Shown here one piece after another: positions 1 through 13,874 of a DNA stretch of 20,736 nt. The position numbers and the translations under genes were made by a program. The notes under the pieces are model-generated. The model was not told the origin of the DNA. It saw only the letters and a list, made by a program, of their open reading frames with translations, and ran no database searches. Origin of the DNA: a virus; IMG/VR virus record IMGVR_UViG_3300042870_000531, positions 1 to 20,736 of that record, one strand, 5' to 3'. The first letter of the stretch is position 1, and every line of letters begins with the position of its first letter.

Positions 1-8
1 CAACGTCA

Positions 9-54
9 ACAAAAAAGAAGAGGCCCCGAGTCGAAGAGGCAGACGACTCGGGGC
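9..54 (-). terminator. Rho-independent terminator of the late operon
   Basis: A perfect 11-bp inverted repeat, GCCCCGAGTCG (23-33) and CGACTCGGGGC (44-54), encloses a 10-nt loop. Read on the minus strand, the GC-rich stem is followed within six bases by a run of six T (positions 16 down to 11). This is the standard intrinsic terminator form and lies downstream of the lysis genes, so it probably ends the long minus-strand late transcript. Confidence 0.85.
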
Positions 55-101
55 AGCGCAGTGGGGGAAAGGAATACCCGGCGCACTCAAATCATACAAC
101 A

Positions 102-130
102 AAACGCCCCACCGGTTAGGCGAGGCGTTT
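102..130 (-). terminator. Weaker hairpin, possible first of two tandem terminators
   Basis: AAACGCC (102-108) pairs with GGCGTTT (124-130) around a 15-nt loop. On the minus strand the 3' arm ends in a short T run (GTTTTGTTG). It lies just after the last small lysis-end gene and before the stronger hairpin at 23-54, so the two may act in tandem. The short stem and imperfect T tract make it uncertain. Confidence 0.4.
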
Positions 131-146
131 CGTTATTTAGCGCAAT

Positions 147-227
147 TTACTGACAACCCTCACACTGAGCAGCTTCAGCCGGATCAACAGGGCACGCAAC
201 CCCATCAACCACGTCAAACTCATTCAC
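147..227 (-). CDS. Putative 26-aa cysteine-containing microprotein after the holin
   Basis: A 26-codon frame opens with GTG at 227-225, which overlaps the holin stop codon as GTGA, a coupling style used elsewhere in this operon, and ends with TAA at 147. The peptide is acidic, with Cys at residues 12, 22 and 25, including a CPVDP stretch and a CEGC knuckle near the C-terminus. This composition looks protein-like and could bind a metal or form a disulfide. An ATG frame of 28 codons starting 3 nt later gives a basic, Leu/Arg-rich peptide and looks less natural. No function can be assigned. Confidence 0.4.
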   Translation of the reverse strand: MNEFDVVDGVACPVDPAEAAQCEGCQ

Positions 228-8641: not shown

Positions 8642-9300
8642 CACTTGCCCCAATCGTTAGCGCGCCGAATCTTCAAAGACCACTCACCAGCGGTCACATC
8701 GTCACGGTCAACCTTTCTTACAAAATAAACCTCGTTGGCGTTATAAGTTCGCGCGTTCTGTGCAACCCACTTAGTAGCGTGAACCGTCCCCTGTTTGACA
8801 TGAGTGTGTGGTGCAGTGACTTGCCTAATGGCAACACCTGCAACCTCACAGCGTCGCTGATAATCATCGTCCTCAAAATTTGCCGGAAAAATGTTCTCAT
8901 CGAACAAGCCCACAGCGTCAACCACGTTCTCGCCAACCCCGAAAAACTGCCAGTGAGGCCACTGATCGCTTAGCGTCAACCCATCCGGCGAACACTCCGC
9001 AGCAAAGTCCTCCAGCGTGCCAGGCTGAAACACCACATCATCACTAACAATCATCCACCACGGCGCAAACGGCGAACACTTAATACCAAGATTCCACGAT
9101 CCAGCACAGCCAAGATTTGCAGGCATATTCAACACCCGATAATCCGCTACACAATCCGGTATCGAATCAGTGCCCTCAAAGTTTGCGCTCGGGTGATTGT
9201 TCACAATGATGAGCAAGCCAACCGGGTAGTCAATGCTCGCCAACATTTTCACCGCTAGATCATGCCGCGTTAGTGTCGGCAGGATCATTACGGGAATCAT
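8641..9300 (-). CDS. GT2-type glycosyltransferase
   Basis: This 219-aa protein resembles the GT-A fold of family 2 glycosyltransferases: MIPVMILPTLTRHDLAVKML at the N-terminus, a SDD metal-binding motif (86-88, within MIVSDDVVF), and FEDDDYQRR (142-150), the ED-type motif around the catalytic base. It probably transfers one sugar from a nucleotide-sugar donor to a glycan or protein. The ATG at 9300 overlaps the upstream GT4 stop as ATGA, which fixes this start over a GTG 36 bases upstream. Its close coupling to a second glycosyltransferase and a methyltransferase suggests joint work on one modified structure. Donor and acceptor are unknown. Confidence 0.82.
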   Translation of the reverse strand: MIPVMILPTLTRHDLAVKMLASIDYPVGLLIIVNNHPSANFEGTDSIPDCVADYRVLNMPANLGCAGSWNLGIKCSPFAPWWMIVSDDVVFQPGTLEDFAAECSPDGLTLSDQWPHWQFFGVGENVVDAVGLFDENIFPANFEDDDYQRRCEVAGVAIRQVTAPHTHVKQGTVHATKWVAQNARTYNANEVYFVRKVDRDDVTAGEWSLKIRRANDWGK

Positions 9301-10496
9301 TTGAAAAACTCGCGTAGGAAAGGCAACCAGCCCCACTTCCAGACGCGCTCAGCGTCGAACTGAGAGGCAAACTCGCGGGCAACCTTAGACGGCCCACGAG
9401 GTGCTTTATAAGCCTCCACGAGGGCATTGTGAATCGAATCAACCAGCGGTATAGACCACCACGCCTTTTGAGGTTCATCCCAAAACGGGACACCCTGCAA
9501 CAACCAACCATCCTCAGCAACTAGGTCGGCACTCGCCGCCCAGCCCGAACAAATTACCCTCGTGCCACACGCCTGAGCCTCCACAGCCGGAATACCAAAG
9601 CCTTCCCCATACGAAGGGTTAGCCAACACGTCAAACGCGCTATAAAGCGCAGCCATGTCCTCCTGCGAGTAGCCCTTACGCAAACGGTCACGCTCCGGAA
9701 AAATGATTGACTCCGGTGGCACACCACACGCTTGCAAAAGAACCGGCAAGTCAAACCCGCCCATGATCCCTGACGGCTCGGTGTGAATGTACATCTTGCT
9801 TTTTGGGTATGACTTTAGGAATATTGACCAGGCCAAAATTAGTTCGGAATAGGCTTTGCGATGAATCAAACCGTTGGCCTTATTCGCGCTCACCACGCCC
9901 ACCAAAAACTCGTCAGGCTTGACCCCAAGATACTCGCGTGCCTTCACCCCGTCGCTCATAGTCTCGCGCGGCTTAAAGACTTTGGTGTCAATCGCGTGCG
10001 GAATATACGTTGACGCGATACCCGCCGCCTCAAGTTGGCGTTGCCCATGAGGTGACATTGTTATCGGTGTGACATTTGGGCGAAGCAGCCACTTAGCCAC
10101 CGCCGGCGGCAATGACTGGTGATCCAGTGGAACCCAAGAAATAAACTTCGTTGGAAAATCGTTGCGCGGCGGAACATCGTTATACACCCACACGTCATAG
10201 AGCGTGAAACACGCGTCGGGCACGCCCGGATTCTGCCCCACAAAATCCTCATGCCACGGCTGAATCACATCATCGCTGTACTGTTTGAACCCGCGAGGGT
10301 AATGCGGAATCTTCTTCCCCGCAAACTCAAGCTCACCAGCAACACCCTCAAGCCCAAAATTACTTAGCGCAGCCACCTTGATACCGTGGCGCACCATCCG
10401 CTCCACCAGCATTGCGCCCTGCTGGCCGTAGCCGGTTGGTTGGCCGGGAGAATTTGAGGCGAGCGAAATAAGTCCGTCGATCTGTTCGTAGGTCAT
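9297..10496 (-). CDS. GT4-type glycosyltransferase (GT-B fold)
   Basis: This 399-aa protein has the GT-B family 4 signature EGFGIPAVE with Glu298 and Glu306 (E-x7-E), followed by AQACGTRVI and a C-terminal helix region. An N-terminal QPTGYGQQG (19-27) resembles the acceptor-domain loop. The enzyme likely transfers a sugar from a nucleotide-sugar to a glycan, lipid or protein in the infected cell. It is the first gene of the cassette, starts at ATG 10496, and has no strong ribosome-binding site, unlike its neighbours. It lies just after the plus-strand gene. A minus-strand promoter of its own is plausible in the AT-rich 10497-10609 region, but I could not identify a convincing one. Confidence 0.85.
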   Translation of the reverse strand: MTYEQIDGLISLASNSPGQPTGYGQQGAMLVERMVRHGIKVAALSNFGLEGVAGELEFAGKKIPHYPRGFKQYSDDVIQPWHEDFVGQNPGVPDACFTLYDVWVYNDVPPRNDFPTKFISWVPLDHQSLPPAVAKWLLRPNVTPITMSPHGQRQLEAAGIASTYIPHAIDTKVFKPRETMSDGVKAREYLGVKPDEFLVGVVSANKANGLIHRKAYSELILAWSIFLKSYPKSKMYIHTEPSGIMGGFDLPVLLQACGVPPESIIFPERDRLRKGYSQEDMAALYSAFDVLANPSYGEGFGIPAVEAQACGTRVICSGWAASADLVAEDGWLLQGVPFWDEPQKAWWSIPLVDSIHNALVEAYKAPRGPSKVAREFASQFDAERVWKWGWLPFLREFFK

Positions 10497-10541
10497 GGGA
10501 AAAGTCTAGCCAGAAAAAAATAAAAAAAGTTGCAAAATAAG

Positions 10542-10569
10542 TAGACAAACCCGCAAAAGTCTTTATACT
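10542..10569 (+). promoter_or_regulatory. Sigma70-type promoter for the plus-strand gene
   Basis: TAGACA (10542-10547) and TATACT (10564-10569) each match the sigma70 consensus in five of six bases and are separated by 16 nt. Transcription would start near 10576 and give a leader of about 35 nt before the ATG at 10610, which is preceded by AAAGGGAAATC. The surrounding DNA is AT-rich. This is the best promoter found in the window. Confidence 0.7.
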
Positions 10570-10609
10570 TATATATATAGGGCAGGCAGCCCGAAACGAA
10601 AGGGAAATC

Positions 10610-10855
10610 ATGGAAATCGCAAACTACACCCTCGAAATCCGCAACAAAGCAATGTGGGCGTGGAACGTCTACCGCGGCGACGAAGCAATTGGCACCGTCT
10701 ACTACGTTGGCAAGAACCGCGACTCCGTAGAGTTTGAGCCGCGCGAAGGACACGCCGTCTACTACGCCGAGACTCTTGGTGAAGCAGTTGACCAGTGGAT
10801 TCAGGAGAAGAACAACTACACCGTTTCGATGCACGCTCCCGGCTACGGGGACTAA
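10610..10855 (+). CDS. Small hypothetical protein, moron-like, opposite strand
   Basis: This 81-aa protein is the only convincing plus-strand gene in the window. It reads as a compact, soluble, aromatic-rich alpha/beta protein: two beta-strand-like stretches (NYTLEIRNKAMWAWNVYRGD; IGTVYYVGKNRDSVEFEPRE) followed by a helix (YYAETLGEAVDQWIQEKNNY). I do not recognise the family, and there is no signal peptide, transmembrane segment or clear DNA-binding motif. It has its own promoter, a ribosome-binding site (AAAGGGA) and a perfect-hairpin terminator, so it can be expressed when the late genes are silent. That layout is typical of phage morons, which often help a lysogen or the host. No integrase is visible here, so lysogeny cannot be shown. 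Confidence 0.75.
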   Translation: MEIANYTLEIRNKAMWAWNVYRGDEAIGTVYYVGKNRDSVEFEPREGHAVYYAETLGEAVDQWIQEKNNYTVSMHAPGYGD

Positions 10856-10870
10856 GCCTCGCAGACAAAG

Positions 10871-10905
10871 AAATCCCCCGGCGAACCTACAACGCCGGGG
10901 GATTT
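10871..10905. terminator. Bidirectional terminator between convergent genes
   Basis: AAATCCCCCGGCG (10871-10883) and CGCCGGGGGATTT (10893-10905) form a perfect 13-bp stem around a 9-nt loop. The A/T-rich ends give ATTT runs in both directions. It would stop the plus-strand gene from the left and the capsid transcript from the right. Because the cassette, connector and tail genes continue on the minus strand, they need readthrough, antitermination or a promoter below. Confidence 0.85.
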
Positions 10906-10919
10906 CCGTTTACAACCGT

Positions 10920-12080
10920 TTAGGCAGTGCCACCACGGAAGTAGTTGACCGAATCGGCAGCGAGACCGGAGTCCCCGCGCCACGTCACCCGGAACGTCGT
11001 AACATCCTGGTTGAACGCGTAGTCAGTCGAAGTTGCAACCTGAATACCGCCAGCCTGACGAACAATGAAGTCATCAAGCTTTCCGTAAACAATGCTCTTC
11101 GATGCGGCAGTTGCAGCAACAGCCGGCATGGAAGCGTTCTCGTGGATCACGTTGCCCATCAGGTAATCGCGGCCATCAACCGAAATTGAGGGTGCGAAGA
11201 TGAAGTTACCTGCGGTGTCCTTGATCTTACGGATAGCGGCGAGTGCCGAGGTCGAAACCATGAAGCCATACGATGCGCGGTTGTCACCGGCTACCGAATA
11301 GGTCAGGTCAACGAGGTTTTCGTATGTCGGCGCACCGCTTGTAGCGGTTCCCGTTACACCCGAACCGGCAGCGGTGACGATACCCGTAGGCTCAACCGTT
11401 CCAGTACCCGTGGTCAGTTTCGCGCCAGCATCAAACGCGATTTCACGCGACGAAATACGGGCAACCAGGTCGAGAAGGTTCACGCCAGAATCAGCAATGA
11501 TCTCGTTCGACAGGCTAACCAGTGCACCGAACTTGTACGCACCAAGGTTCAGCTGACTGAGCGTAGGGTTCTGCTCAGAGATAGCGGAACCGGCAGCAAA
11601 CTGACCGTAAGTACCGGCAGCCGTAACCTTAGGAATCTGCAGCGTGTTGCCACCAGTGGTCGTGATAATGGTGGACGTGCTGAACAGCGGGTTGCTGTTC
11701 TGCAGGAACTCAAACACCTGGGCGTAGAAGTCGTAAGGAACAACTCCCGAACCGCTAGTGGGGGTAAGAGCAGCGCGGAACTCGTGGCCACGCATTTCTC
11801 CCATAGCAATGCTACGAAGAATCGCAGAATCGTCACGAGACTCAACAGCAGGAACGAAACCGCGTGCGGCTTCAGCAACCTCAGCCTGACGCTCCTCAGA
11901 GCGACGTGCTACGGAAATGCCGGTGTCAATGTCGGCAATACGAGCCTCGAGACGCTCAACGTGTCCCAGGTCGTCAACGGTGAGGCCACGGGCCTCAGCT
12001 TCAGCCCGATCAAGGATGTCACGAACCTGAAAAATCAGGTTAGCGCGTTCCTCAGTCTGGCCCTTAATGAAATCACTCAT
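10920..12080 (-). CDS. Major capsid protein, HK97 fold
   Basis: This 386-aa protein is the main shell subunit. Residues 1-105 form a helical, charged delta-like domain (MSDFIKGQTEERANLIFQVR; GHVERLEARIADI) that probably works as an internal scaffold and is removed by the protease during maturation; cleavage position was not determined. After about residue 108 the sequence is HK97-like: SGVVPYDFYAQVFEFLQ, the E-loop/P-domain part (TSTIITTTGGNTLQIPK), and a C-terminal FRVTWRGDSGLAADSVNYF. ATG at 12080 is used, not the TTG 39 bases upstream, because GGAG lies 8 nt before it. Hand-counted plus-strand G and C are more balanced than in the neighbours, a codon-use difference that fits a highly expressed gene. 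Confidence 0.9.
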   Translation of the reverse strand: MSDFIKGQTEERANLIFQVRDILDRAEAEARGLTVDDLGHVERLEARIADIDTGISVARRSEERQAEVAEAARGFVPAVESRDDSAILRSIAMGEMRGHEFRAALTPTSGSGVVPYDFYAQVFEFLQNSNPLFSTSTIITTTGGNTLQIPKVTAAGTYGQFAAGSAISEQNPTLSQLNLGAYKFGALVSLSNEIIADSGVNLLDLVARISSREIAFDAGAKLTTGTGTVEPTGIVTAAGSGVTGTATSGAPTYENLVDLTYSVAGDNRASYGFMVSTSALAAIRKIKDTAGNFIFAPSISVDGRDYLMGNVIHENASMPAVAATAASKSIVYGKLDDFIVRQAGGIQVATSTDYAFNQDVTTFRVTWRGDSGLAADSVNYFRGGTA

Positions 12081-12203
12081 TGTGAATACTCCAAAGGTAG
12101 AAAGGATTATGAACGGCAACCGCTGACGGAAAACCTAGCATCGCCGCTAACGGTCAAACGCATACCTTAAGAATACCAAAGTCTCTACTCAGTAGAGTGA
12201 GGA
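12081..12203 (-). promoter_or_regulatory. 123-nt leader before the capsid gene, with a short palindrome
   Basis: Most late genes here overlap or nearly touch, but 123 nt separate the protease stop and the capsid ATG. The gap holds a 7-bp-arm palindrome, CTCTACT C AGTAGAG (12183-12197), and a strong ribosome-binding site close to the capsid ATG. The central gap of one base is too short for a normal hairpin loop, so the palindrome could be a protein-binding site or chance. A capsid-specific promoter or 5' leader is plausible: TTGACC is present on the minus strand (12157-12152), but no convincing -10 follows at the right spacing. Confidence 0.3.
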
Positions 12204-13874
12204 TTACAGGCTATCGAGCAACTCCATGAGCGCAATCTTCTTACGGTGCAACGCCAACTGATCAAGGCCGTTCTGCTCAGTCATCGCCTCATCCATCGGC
12301 GCATCCTCAACCGGTGCTTCTTCTTCAGGTACCAAAGCGTCCAAAACCAACTCCATAACTTCCTTCTCAGCGTAAGTGATTGGCTCACCAGCAGCAACCT
12401 TGCCAAGCACCATGCTGAGCGCGTCATAGTCAACGCCGACAGCCACAACAACATCTTCTAATGAGCGCACTTGAGCAGTTCCGTTCGTCGAGGGGTAAGC
12501 CGGAAAAGCAACCCCAGTTGATACTTCCAAAAGGCGCACAGACTTCAGTGTGCGTTCAGTGCCGTCTGAGCTCCAAGAGTCACCGTTAGCGGGAACAGTA
12601 AACCCAAACGAGAACCCGGTCACATCACCGCGCTGGATCAGCACCTTTGCATCACGTCCAGCCTGAGTGTCCGGCAGGTCAGCCTCAACACGCAAACCCA
12701 TCTCATCTTCATAAAGACGCAACGTGCCCGACCGAGTCGAACCGAGAACCGAACTTGAGTCATGGTTCCACAACAATTTGATGTCGTTCTTAGCGCGAAG
12801 TGAACGCTTGAACGCACCAGGCGCAATGCGCTCAATAAACGGCAATGGCTCAGAAGGCTCGTTAAACCGAGCAGCGTAGCCGGTGAGCGTCATACCTTCA
12901 GCCGTTTCGCGCACCTCAAAATCGTTTACAAAAACGCGAGTCTCAATTTTCGACACAGTGCCACCCTTAGATCGGTTAGTGTTCTCCGCCTCAATTCTAC
13001 CAATTATATCCTCAGCATAGGAAAGCACCCTGCGCGCGCCCGACTTGCCACCATCCGAACCCCACAACGCATGAGCAACAACACCCGCGCTCGGGTAATT
13101 GTCCGAGTCCGGATTAGCATCCGGCGAATCCAAATCAACCAGGTGGCGGGAAATCCACGCCGCAATCCGCACCCACTTATCTGCCGAAACCTGACCGGCA
13201 ACCATATCGCGCGCCTCGCGCACCGTTCGCCCCGTCAAACCATCCCCAGCAAGCCCTTCAGCGAACCATTCAAGCCCTTTACGGGCCGCATCCACCATGT
13301 AAGCCGGTGGTGTCAAATCAACGGCTCTAGCCTCCGCACGAGAAGCCGGAACTTCATTAGGGTGCAGTGCCGTGATACCGGCGGCTCGATAGGCCGCGCG
13401 TGCGCCCTCATCGTTATCCACCGCAACCATCACGTTATATGTTTCCATCAACCGCACCGCAGTCTCAGCCTTGAACTCGTTACTAGTCAAAGACTCATCC
13501 GGGCGCATAATCAAATCATCAAAGCGCACCCCGGCATCCGTCAGCTCGTTGCTCGTGCGCTCACGATCCTCCTCGAGTCGCCCCGTCACCACAAAAATAG
13601 ACGTGTCAGGGAAACTGTCAAGATACGCCAACAGGTTCTCGTTCGTCTTGTTGCCGTCAATGAAAATCGTGCCGTCAATATCAGTCACCACAACCTGTGG
13701 CCCCGACTCATTACGCTCACCCAAAAACTCAACCTCCTCCGCCAACGAAATCGCCACCGCCTGGTCAATCGCAGACTGCTTCGTTGTGTGGCAACCAAAC
13801 ACCTCATCGGAGTCAATGGCCATGACAGCCCAACCGGAGCAATCCGCGTTCTCTTGCGTAATGTAATAAGGCAT
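12204..13874 (-). CDS. HAD phosphatase-prohead protease fusion (capsid maturation protease)
   Basis: This 556-aa protein is far longer than a usual S78 prohead protease (about 200-250 aa). Residues 1-50 form a small domain (MPYYITQENADCSGWAV) that I have seen at actinophage structural-protein N-termini. Residues 58-172 show the HAD phosphatase motifs in order: DIDGT (Asp65, Asp67), VVTGR (Thr97), Lys135 and VDNDE (Asp153, Asp155), most like a phage 3'-phosphatase/acid-phosphatase type. Residues 186-296 are a helical domain of unknown role. Residues 308-472 are the protease: TRVFVNDFEV, His371 (WNHD) and Ser422 (GFSFGF), the probable catalytic pair. The last 85 residues are acidic. The protease trims the capsid delta domain; the phosphatase role is unknown. 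ATG overlaps the upstream stop as TAATG. Confidence 0.88.
   Translation of the reverse strand: MPYYITQENADCSGWAVMAIDSDEVFGCHTTKQSAIDQAVAISLAEEVEFLGERNESGPQVVVTDIDGTIFIDGNKTNENLLAYLDSFPDTSIFVVTGRLEEDRERTSNELTDAGVRFDDLIMRPDESLTSNEFKAETAVRLMETYNVMVAVDNDEGARAAYRAAGITALHPNEVPASRAEARAVDLTPPAYMVDAARKGLEWFAEGLAGDGLTGRTVREARDMVAGQVSADKWVRIAAWISRHLVDLDSPDANPDSDNYPSAGVVAHALWGSDGGKSGARRVLSYAEDIIGRIEAENTNRSKGGTVSKIETRVFVNDFEVRETAEGMTLTGYAARFNEPSEPLPFIERIAPGAFKRSLRAKNDIKLLWNHDSSSVLGSTRSGTLRLYEDEMGLRVEADLPDTQAGRDAKVLIQRGDVTGFSFGFTVPANGDSWSSDGTERTLKSVRLLEVSTGVAFPAYPSTNGTAQVRSLEDVVVAVGVDYDALSMVLGKVAAGEPITYAEKEVMELVLDALVPEEEAPVEDAPMDEAMTEQNGLDQLALHRKKIALMELLDSL
12954..12968 (-). promoter_or_regulatory. Internal ribosome-binding site and GTG start within the fusion gene
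   Basis: Inside the fusion gene, in frame, AAGGGTGG (12968-12961) is followed 4 nt later by GTG (12956-12954), codon 307. Translation from it would give about 250 aa beginning MSKIETRVFVNDFEV, which is exactly where stand-alone S78 proteases usually start. The site therefore could yield a protease without the phosphatase part. Its use is inferred, not shown. Confidence 0.5.

Follow-up and report, generated by a model that had tools for sequence, protein, structure and literature searches.

What is a single small gene doing on the opposite strand of a phage late operon, between the capsid gene and a gene for surface modification? The window, by which we mean the whole 20,736-base stretch of DNA analysed here, is a record of an uncultured phage. 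Its nearest named relative is Pontimonas phage phiPsal1 (MG835450.1), and the hosts of the phage group are probably small aquatic actinobacteria. The late block of the window occupies the minus strand and comprises genes for terminase, portal, protease, capsid, a glycosyltransferase (GT), GT2, a methyltransferase-like protein, and neck and tail proteins. Within it, only one plus-strand ORF is gene-like and, as the first-pass annotation of this DNA had indicated, it lies between capsid and GT (Table 1). That annotation regarded the gene as a moron, of a kind often active in lysogens and often devoted to defence or to benefiting the host. The explanation that we favor, and consider probable as a whole, is that the 81-aa gene now fills an expression slot whose contents can be exchanged, and that an RNA link would connect the loop of the adjoining terminator to the start of GT.

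Table 1. Features of the window discussed in the text (strand: +, plus; -, minus;., both or none).
Feature	Position	Strand	Basis
Cargo ORF, 81 aa, ATG start, TAA stop, no recognised family	10610..10855	+	ORF call, codon score, family searches
Shine-Dalgarno GAAAGGG	10598..10604	+	sequence; AAAGG element recurs in relatives
5' leader, ATATA plus GGGC-AGGCA-GCCC hairpin, predicted transcript 5' end	10575..10592	+	comparison of 21 slots
Cassette promoter TAGACA-16-TATACT	10542..10569	+	pattern match and comparison with occupied slots
Bidirectional terminator hairpin, 14 bp, common to cassette and capsid gene, ancestral	10870..10906	.	sequence and comparison
Hairpin loop UUGUAGGUU in capsid message, complementary to GT start	10884..10892	-	pairing and covariation tests
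Major capsid protein (HK97 type)	10920..12119	-	PHROGs and Pfam profile matches
Predicted leaderless GT promoter, -10 box TAGACT exactly 6 nt ahead of GT ATG	10503..10508	-	comparison
GT codons 2-4, ACC TAC GAA, complement of loop	10485..10493	-	18 close-relative GT starts
Group 1 glycosyltransferase (GT)	9297..10496	-	profile matches
Second slot (slot B) beside holin-like gene, empty in window: short hairpin (102-130) only	96..135	.	comparison

The 81-aa ORF

By codon usage the ORF appears to be coding, with a score that tops those of the other five frames and of all 1000 shuffles. The AAAGGG of its Shine-Dalgarno element (SD) lies 5-6 nt ahead of the ATG. An independent contig (L001/L003) has a 423-bp capsid-GT interval identical to that of the window and a capsid gene that is 99.9% identical. 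The protein had been assigned to no recognised family, and homology and structure searches bore this out. No match was obtained by tblastn against phages (E≤0.1), in PADLOC, NCBIfam or PDB sequences, or in GTDB genomes (close relatives only); Pfam returned no family (best E 0.1), and the best PHROGs match (E 0.011) is of unknown function. AlphaFold, run without an alignment, models four strands and a helix (pLDDT 60), and fold searches with this model gave no match at E≤0.001.

An exchangeable slot beside the capsid gene

The capsid-GT interval, hereafter slot A, was compared among 23 related records that contain it complete and were found by capsid or terminator scans; L071, where the contig end cuts the slot, was excluded. 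Seventeen records carry one to three small ORFs and six are empty (Table 2), the interval measuring ~80-840 bp. The 81-aa ORF is present in just two of the 17 occupied slots, those of the window and L001, which are nearly the same phage. L002 has a capsid gene 94.2% identical to the window's at the DNA level, and yet the cargo of its slot is unrelated.

Table 2. Contents of slot A in 23 records.
Cargo	Records
81 aa	window, L001
46 + 70 aa	L002
46 + 87 aa	L005, L006
46 + 69 + 87 aa	L016
52 aa	L004, L007
87-aa type	L008, L017, L078
80-aa type	L013, L076, L080, L083
~51-aa ORF + 92 aa	L012
66 aa	L014
empty	L009, L010, L011, L015, L069, L073

The gene is also absent from this place in 29 distant loci, whose capsids are mostly 37-47% identical, and in phiPsal1, all with a capsid-GT gap of ~70-150 nt that holds a hairpin only. 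Since these loci have nothing but the hairpin, the cargo gene is an insertion into a persisting slot; and since the hairpin is found in all distant loci and cargo in none, the terminator would have come first and the cargo later. phiPsal1 has the same capsid-GT gene order with a terminator hairpin in between, but its gap is ~70 bp, without a cargo gene, and its loop mismatches the GT start. The gene had been said to interrupt the late operon. Inserted it is, but into a site that in relatives is already a transcription boundary, made up of the capsid terminator and an apparent GT promoter.

The "empty" slots of L009, L010, L011 and L015 retain ~60 bp, in which a promoter-like sequence (TTGCCA...TATCCT, identified by eye) leads straight into the terminator and could yield a tiny non-coding RNA.

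A shared front end

Taken by itself, the promoter match in the window is at chance level (1 found, 1.1 expected). We regard the promoter as real because the same promoter-leader unit precedes the cargo in all 21 occupied slots examined, 15 of them slot A and 6 the second slot described below. The -35 box, TAGACA in the window, is TTGACA in 12 of the 21, and six have a second promoter form starting TTGCA. All 21 leaders begin ATATA-GGGC, and the GGGC...GCCC stem, with a variable loop, is kept in 20, L193 being without it; the pattern itself counts 19, and L191, whose 11-nt loop is one base beyond the pattern limit, was added by eye. On the predicted RNA, some five bases would separate the hairpin from the 5' end. 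Five leaders taken as examples fold with energies of about -7 to -8 kcal/mol. In L016, the leader is repeated ahead of the third ORF. Some pattern matches (L084-L089, L091, L093, L094, L096, L097 and L225) were judged by their context to be due to chance. The promoter, ribosome-binding site and bidirectional hairpin listed in the first-pass annotation are all present, the one correction being that the hairpin has 14 bp and not 13. We propose that this near-consensus sigma-70-type promoter, the hairpin at the RNA 5' end and the SD drive expression of whichever tiny ORF or ORFs reside in the slot, and that transcription of the cassette would stop at the pre-existing, two-way capsid terminator.

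Could the slot serve to make an RNA, acting as a small RNA or to insulate transcription, with the ORFs being incidental? Such a role would fit the persistence of the leader hairpin in all but one of the slots and the promoter-like sequence that some "empty" slots (the four named above, by eye) retain before the terminator. We nonetheless consider it very unlikely, as SD and ATG are similarly spaced, the window ORF shows codon bias, and synonymous changes exceed non-synonymous ones in the pairs of 66-aa and 87-aa ORFs. The numbers are small throughout, however. Seven cargo pairs allowed a count, two more being of unequal length, and in two of the seven non-synonymous changes equal or exceed synonymous ones.

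Promoter and hairpin combinations have precedents. PeSLs are reportedly mobile composites of a promoter and a stem-loop present at many sites; measured against this criterion, the present unit was rejected as a member, since the promoter-leader recurs at two sites only and the terminators are slot-specific. The resemblance to the T4-type PeSL cassettes (Arbiol 2010, Comeau 2014; PMC4503421) lies in a promoter-hairpin combination tied to the shuffling of small genes. The differences lie in the actinophage host type, in two fixed slots in place of many sites, and in a terminator that belongs to the slot and not to a mobile composite. The Start-Associated Sequences (SAS) described in cluster K mycobacteriophages and cluster EF Microbacterium phages are a conserved 13-bp motif at the ribosome-binding site, with many copies per genome (PMC3203893, PMC7302621). 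Like SAS (GGGATAGGAGCCC; GGGAAAGGACCCC), the leader motif (GGGCAGGCAGCCC) is a short GGG...CCC element ahead of small genes of unknown function, a likeness in form only; unlike SAS, it marks the 5' end of the predicted RNA, has a variable loop, stands apart from the SD and occurs once or twice per genome. Membership was rejected here too: there is one exact copy in the window and there are zero to two per record (15 records, longer pattern), upstream of a separate SD.

A second slot and the exchange of cargo

The same promoter-leader unit is found at a second place, slot B, between the holin and lambda-exonuclease genes, where the terminator differs from that of slot A. Slot B is occupied in seven of nine records (contigs of L090, L092, L095, L098, L191, L193 and L194) and empty in the window and L196. 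One 66-aa ORF is common to slot A of L014 and slot B of both L092 and L095; its L014 and L092 versions differ at 8 codons synonymously and at 3 non-synonymously. Two contigs that share the 52-aa cargo of slot A (L004 and L007) differ in slot B (L194 and L098). Together, these findings indicate that cargo moves between the slots and that the slots vary independently. Sequence comparison thus documents the exchange, the shared front end and the existence of two slots. As for the route, homologous recombination in the shared flanks, in slot A and its twin alike, would be the simplest; integrase-mediated exchange was considered and dropped. None of 17 records, which may be incomplete, matches the integrase or resolvase Pfam models.

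Ahead of slot B, the window (1-224), L090, L092, L095 and L098 have a hairpin rich in GC, which in the window reads GGCCCCGAGTCG...CGACTCGGGGC.

All 11 cargo ORFs tested are ORFans, with no convincing family match; the structure models obtained are of low confidence. The commonest cargo family (10 sequences) yields a helical model (pLDDT 66) for which fold searches found no match at E≤0.001; a weak similarity to Cre (E 2.5) was taken as chance. The cargo ORFs are small, turn over rapidly and have host-type promoters that are not under late control, and integrases are absent; this suggests an early role in lytic infection, with the products most likely being small inhibitors of host or rival functions. 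Timing and function are here what we infer, and for any given cargo we hold the role of early inhibitor to be possible rather than probable.

The term moron denotes a gene with expression of its own that a comparison of relatives shows to be an insertion in an operon (PMC2629481). In this formal sense the term, as applied to the 81-aa gene, is apt: judged by sequence, the gene has its own promoter and shares a terminator with the capsid gene. Like phage morons, for example the P22-like ant moron (PMC2629481), the slot holds one or more genes in a late operon that are predicted to be independently expressed and are variable or absent among relatives; unlike them, it combines a fixed promoter-leader frame with replaceable cargo, has a twin, borrows its terminator from the capsid gene and is accompanied by no sign of lysogeny. 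This last point bears on the other part of the claim, activity in lysogens, which found no support. If the gene were an ordinary lysogenic-conversion moron, that is, a single host-benefit gene kept on in the prophage, at a site with nothing special about it, its own promoter and terminator and its insertion relative to relatives would be explained. However, integrase and resolvase models have no match in the 17 records, which may be incomplete, phiPsal1 is described as lytic without integration (PMC6106888), cargo is wholly replaced while its frame stays fixed, and the slot has a twin, all of which makes this origin quite improbable. As an exchangeable slot, the site would amount to a labelled address for phage accessory micro-proteins, whose occupants can be found through the shared promoter-leader and tested against host defence or metabolism.

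The capsid terminator and the GT start

The slot is flanked by older elements, both conserved: on one side the capsid terminator, on the other the promoter and start of GT, apparently leaderless. The hairpin of the terminator has 14 perfect pairs, a 9-nt loop and T-rich tails both ways. The pattern scan did not list it, probably because the loop exceeds the scan's 8-nt limit; that it is real is argued by its presence in all 29 diverged loci surveyed. Its stem diverges in sequence, but in many loci the loop, taken in the direction of the capsid gene, is (U)UGUAGGUU. GT relatives in other phyla are without the hairpin arrangement, part of which is present in one Microbacteriaceae MAG among them (L199).

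On the GT side, a TAnnnT box ends 5-8 nt, mostly exactly 6, ahead of the start codon in all 39 loci that have no SD. The window has TAGACT-6-ATG and, by eye, no evident -35 box. An extensive leaderless transcriptome has been reported in Mycobacterium tuberculosis (PMC3898074).

Complementarity between terminator loop and GT start

The terminator loop is complementary to the first ~15 nt of the predicted GT message. In the window, the pairing amounts to -11.0 kcal/mol. The 2,049 other stretches of that strand all pair less well, although the cargo puts ~370 nt between loop and target. GT codons 2-4 show no synonymous change in any of 18 distinct close-clade GT starts, whereas most neighbouring codons have some. 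Together with the pairing in the window, this constancy supports, without proving, the notion that the pairing is still used in cargo-bearing phages.

A broader set was drawn from 80 GT loci. L118, where the match begins at the locus edge, was excluded, and nine had no hairpin in the 160 nt scanned: L149, L159 and L174, which are cassette-bearing close relatives with the hairpin further off, three with less than ~60 nt upstream, and three others. The 70 loci kept reduce to 60 non-redundant ones and to 49 below 85% identity. Over these 49 diverged loci the mean energy of a loop with its own GT start is -8.14 kcal/mol, against -6.46 (sd 0.20) for swaps, and none of 20,000 swaps is as good, in a test that ignores relatedness among loci, though compensated loop types recur. 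In the first version of this test, the target was cut at ATG+15 and targets further in were missed, which the 20,000-swap test corrects. A test on 26 loci gave -8.8 for own and -7.6 for permuted pairings (p 0.0004), with no pairing in phiPsal1 and little in L019, L032, L051, L053 and L061.

Runs of at least six Watson-Crick pairs form in 29 of the 49 loci, whereas six controls gave 0-2 of 49 apiece, and with 30 of 47 hairpins at the capsid-GT site, against 1 of 44 other hairpins of the same loci. The own target ranks within the best 5% of locus stretches in 35 of 49 loci (2.5 expected), and in 33 of the 36 whose loop has at least 7 nt. It falls outside in the other 14, among them six of the seven loci with a 6-nt GCGTAG loop, whose pairing is not significant singly; seven of the 49, mostly with short or unusual loops, show no loop-GT pairing.

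The loop GTAGGTT is common to many loci and the match lies mostly within coding sequence, so that one might see in it an inherited motif whose fit to the GT start is due to coincidence or coding bias. To this we give hardly any credence. The complement AACCTAC occurs in different reading frames (Asn-Leu-Gln, Thr-Tyr, Pro-Thr) and, in L049, upstream of the ATG; altered loops have matching altered targets (TCTAGGTT with AACCTAGA, TGCAGGTT with AACCTGC, TGGTTGGT with GCCAACTA, TGGTTGAT with GTCAGCCA and, by eye, GTAGGGT with ACCCTAC in L181); and in 25 loci with a loop that lacks GTAGGTT, own pairing beats 5000 of 5000 swaps. In L141, loop TCTAGGTT matches its target in part only.

Covariation of inverted repeats would also arise if loop and GT start were DNA half-sites for a co-evolving regulatory protein such as a repressor, and the GT promoter does lie between them. 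Yet the complementarity ends ~1 nt into the stem, as pairing of an RNA loop predicts, it persists in the window with the elements ~400 bp apart, and other hairpins of the same loci show nothing of the kind. We therefore think a DNA-level role unlikely and prefer an RNA interaction.

The likeliest reading of such an interaction is that the ends of abundant capsid mRNA pair with the GT message at the ribosome loading site and lower GT translation. Where an SD is present and the loop is GCGTAG, the candidate target is mostly part of the 5' UTR, close to the SD, so that pairing would cover the ribosome landing site in leaderless and SD-bearing loci alike. Action in trans on the GT message would be favored, because an internal AUG without SD would hardly be translated from read-through RNA. 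There is a parallel in Helicobacter pylori, where the terminator loop of RepG pairs with the 5' region of an mRNA (PMC8295292). The complementarity of an intrinsic terminator loop to an mRNA 5' region is common to both cases, here with covariation; unlike RepG (PMC8295292), the loop of the present system belongs to the end of the capsid mRNA, its target is the next gene, and regulation is a prediction. An Rfam search of the window gave no match, and literature searches on leaderless genes, capsid terminators, terminator loops and antisense listed no paper that, by its title and the opening lines of its abstract, reports such an arrangement in phages.

An ancestral terminator and a covarying complementarity emerge from the comparison of loci. 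Put in its most specific form, our proposal is that in this actinophage clade the capsid terminator loop serves as a dedicated antisense element lowering leaderless GT, that the gap is the docking slot of a two-site micro-gene cassette system, and that the 81-aa protein belongs to a larger set of cargo micro-proteins, probably host-directed; in all these particulars together we advance it tentatively, on the strength of sequence. From the covarying match follows a concrete prediction, cheap to test, that RNA control operates in these phages, whose hosts would be aquatic actinobacteria of tiny size and mostly uncultured. The match also suggests that terminator loops can hold information.

Other variable features of these phages

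Three observations concern neighboring genes. The protease ORF of the window (12204-13874; 556 aa) is long and apparently a fusion, with similarity to HAD/polynucleotide kinase phosphatase families over the first ~180 residues. The methyltransferase gene is opposite in strand to its neighbors in phiPsal1 (L067, 14325-14843), unlike in the window, and in L031 (3354-3875) it is oriented as in phiPsal1. Finally, GT and GT2, which overlap in the window, are separated by ~700 bp of extra DNA in L005, L007, L009, L013 and L017, which marks another variable site.
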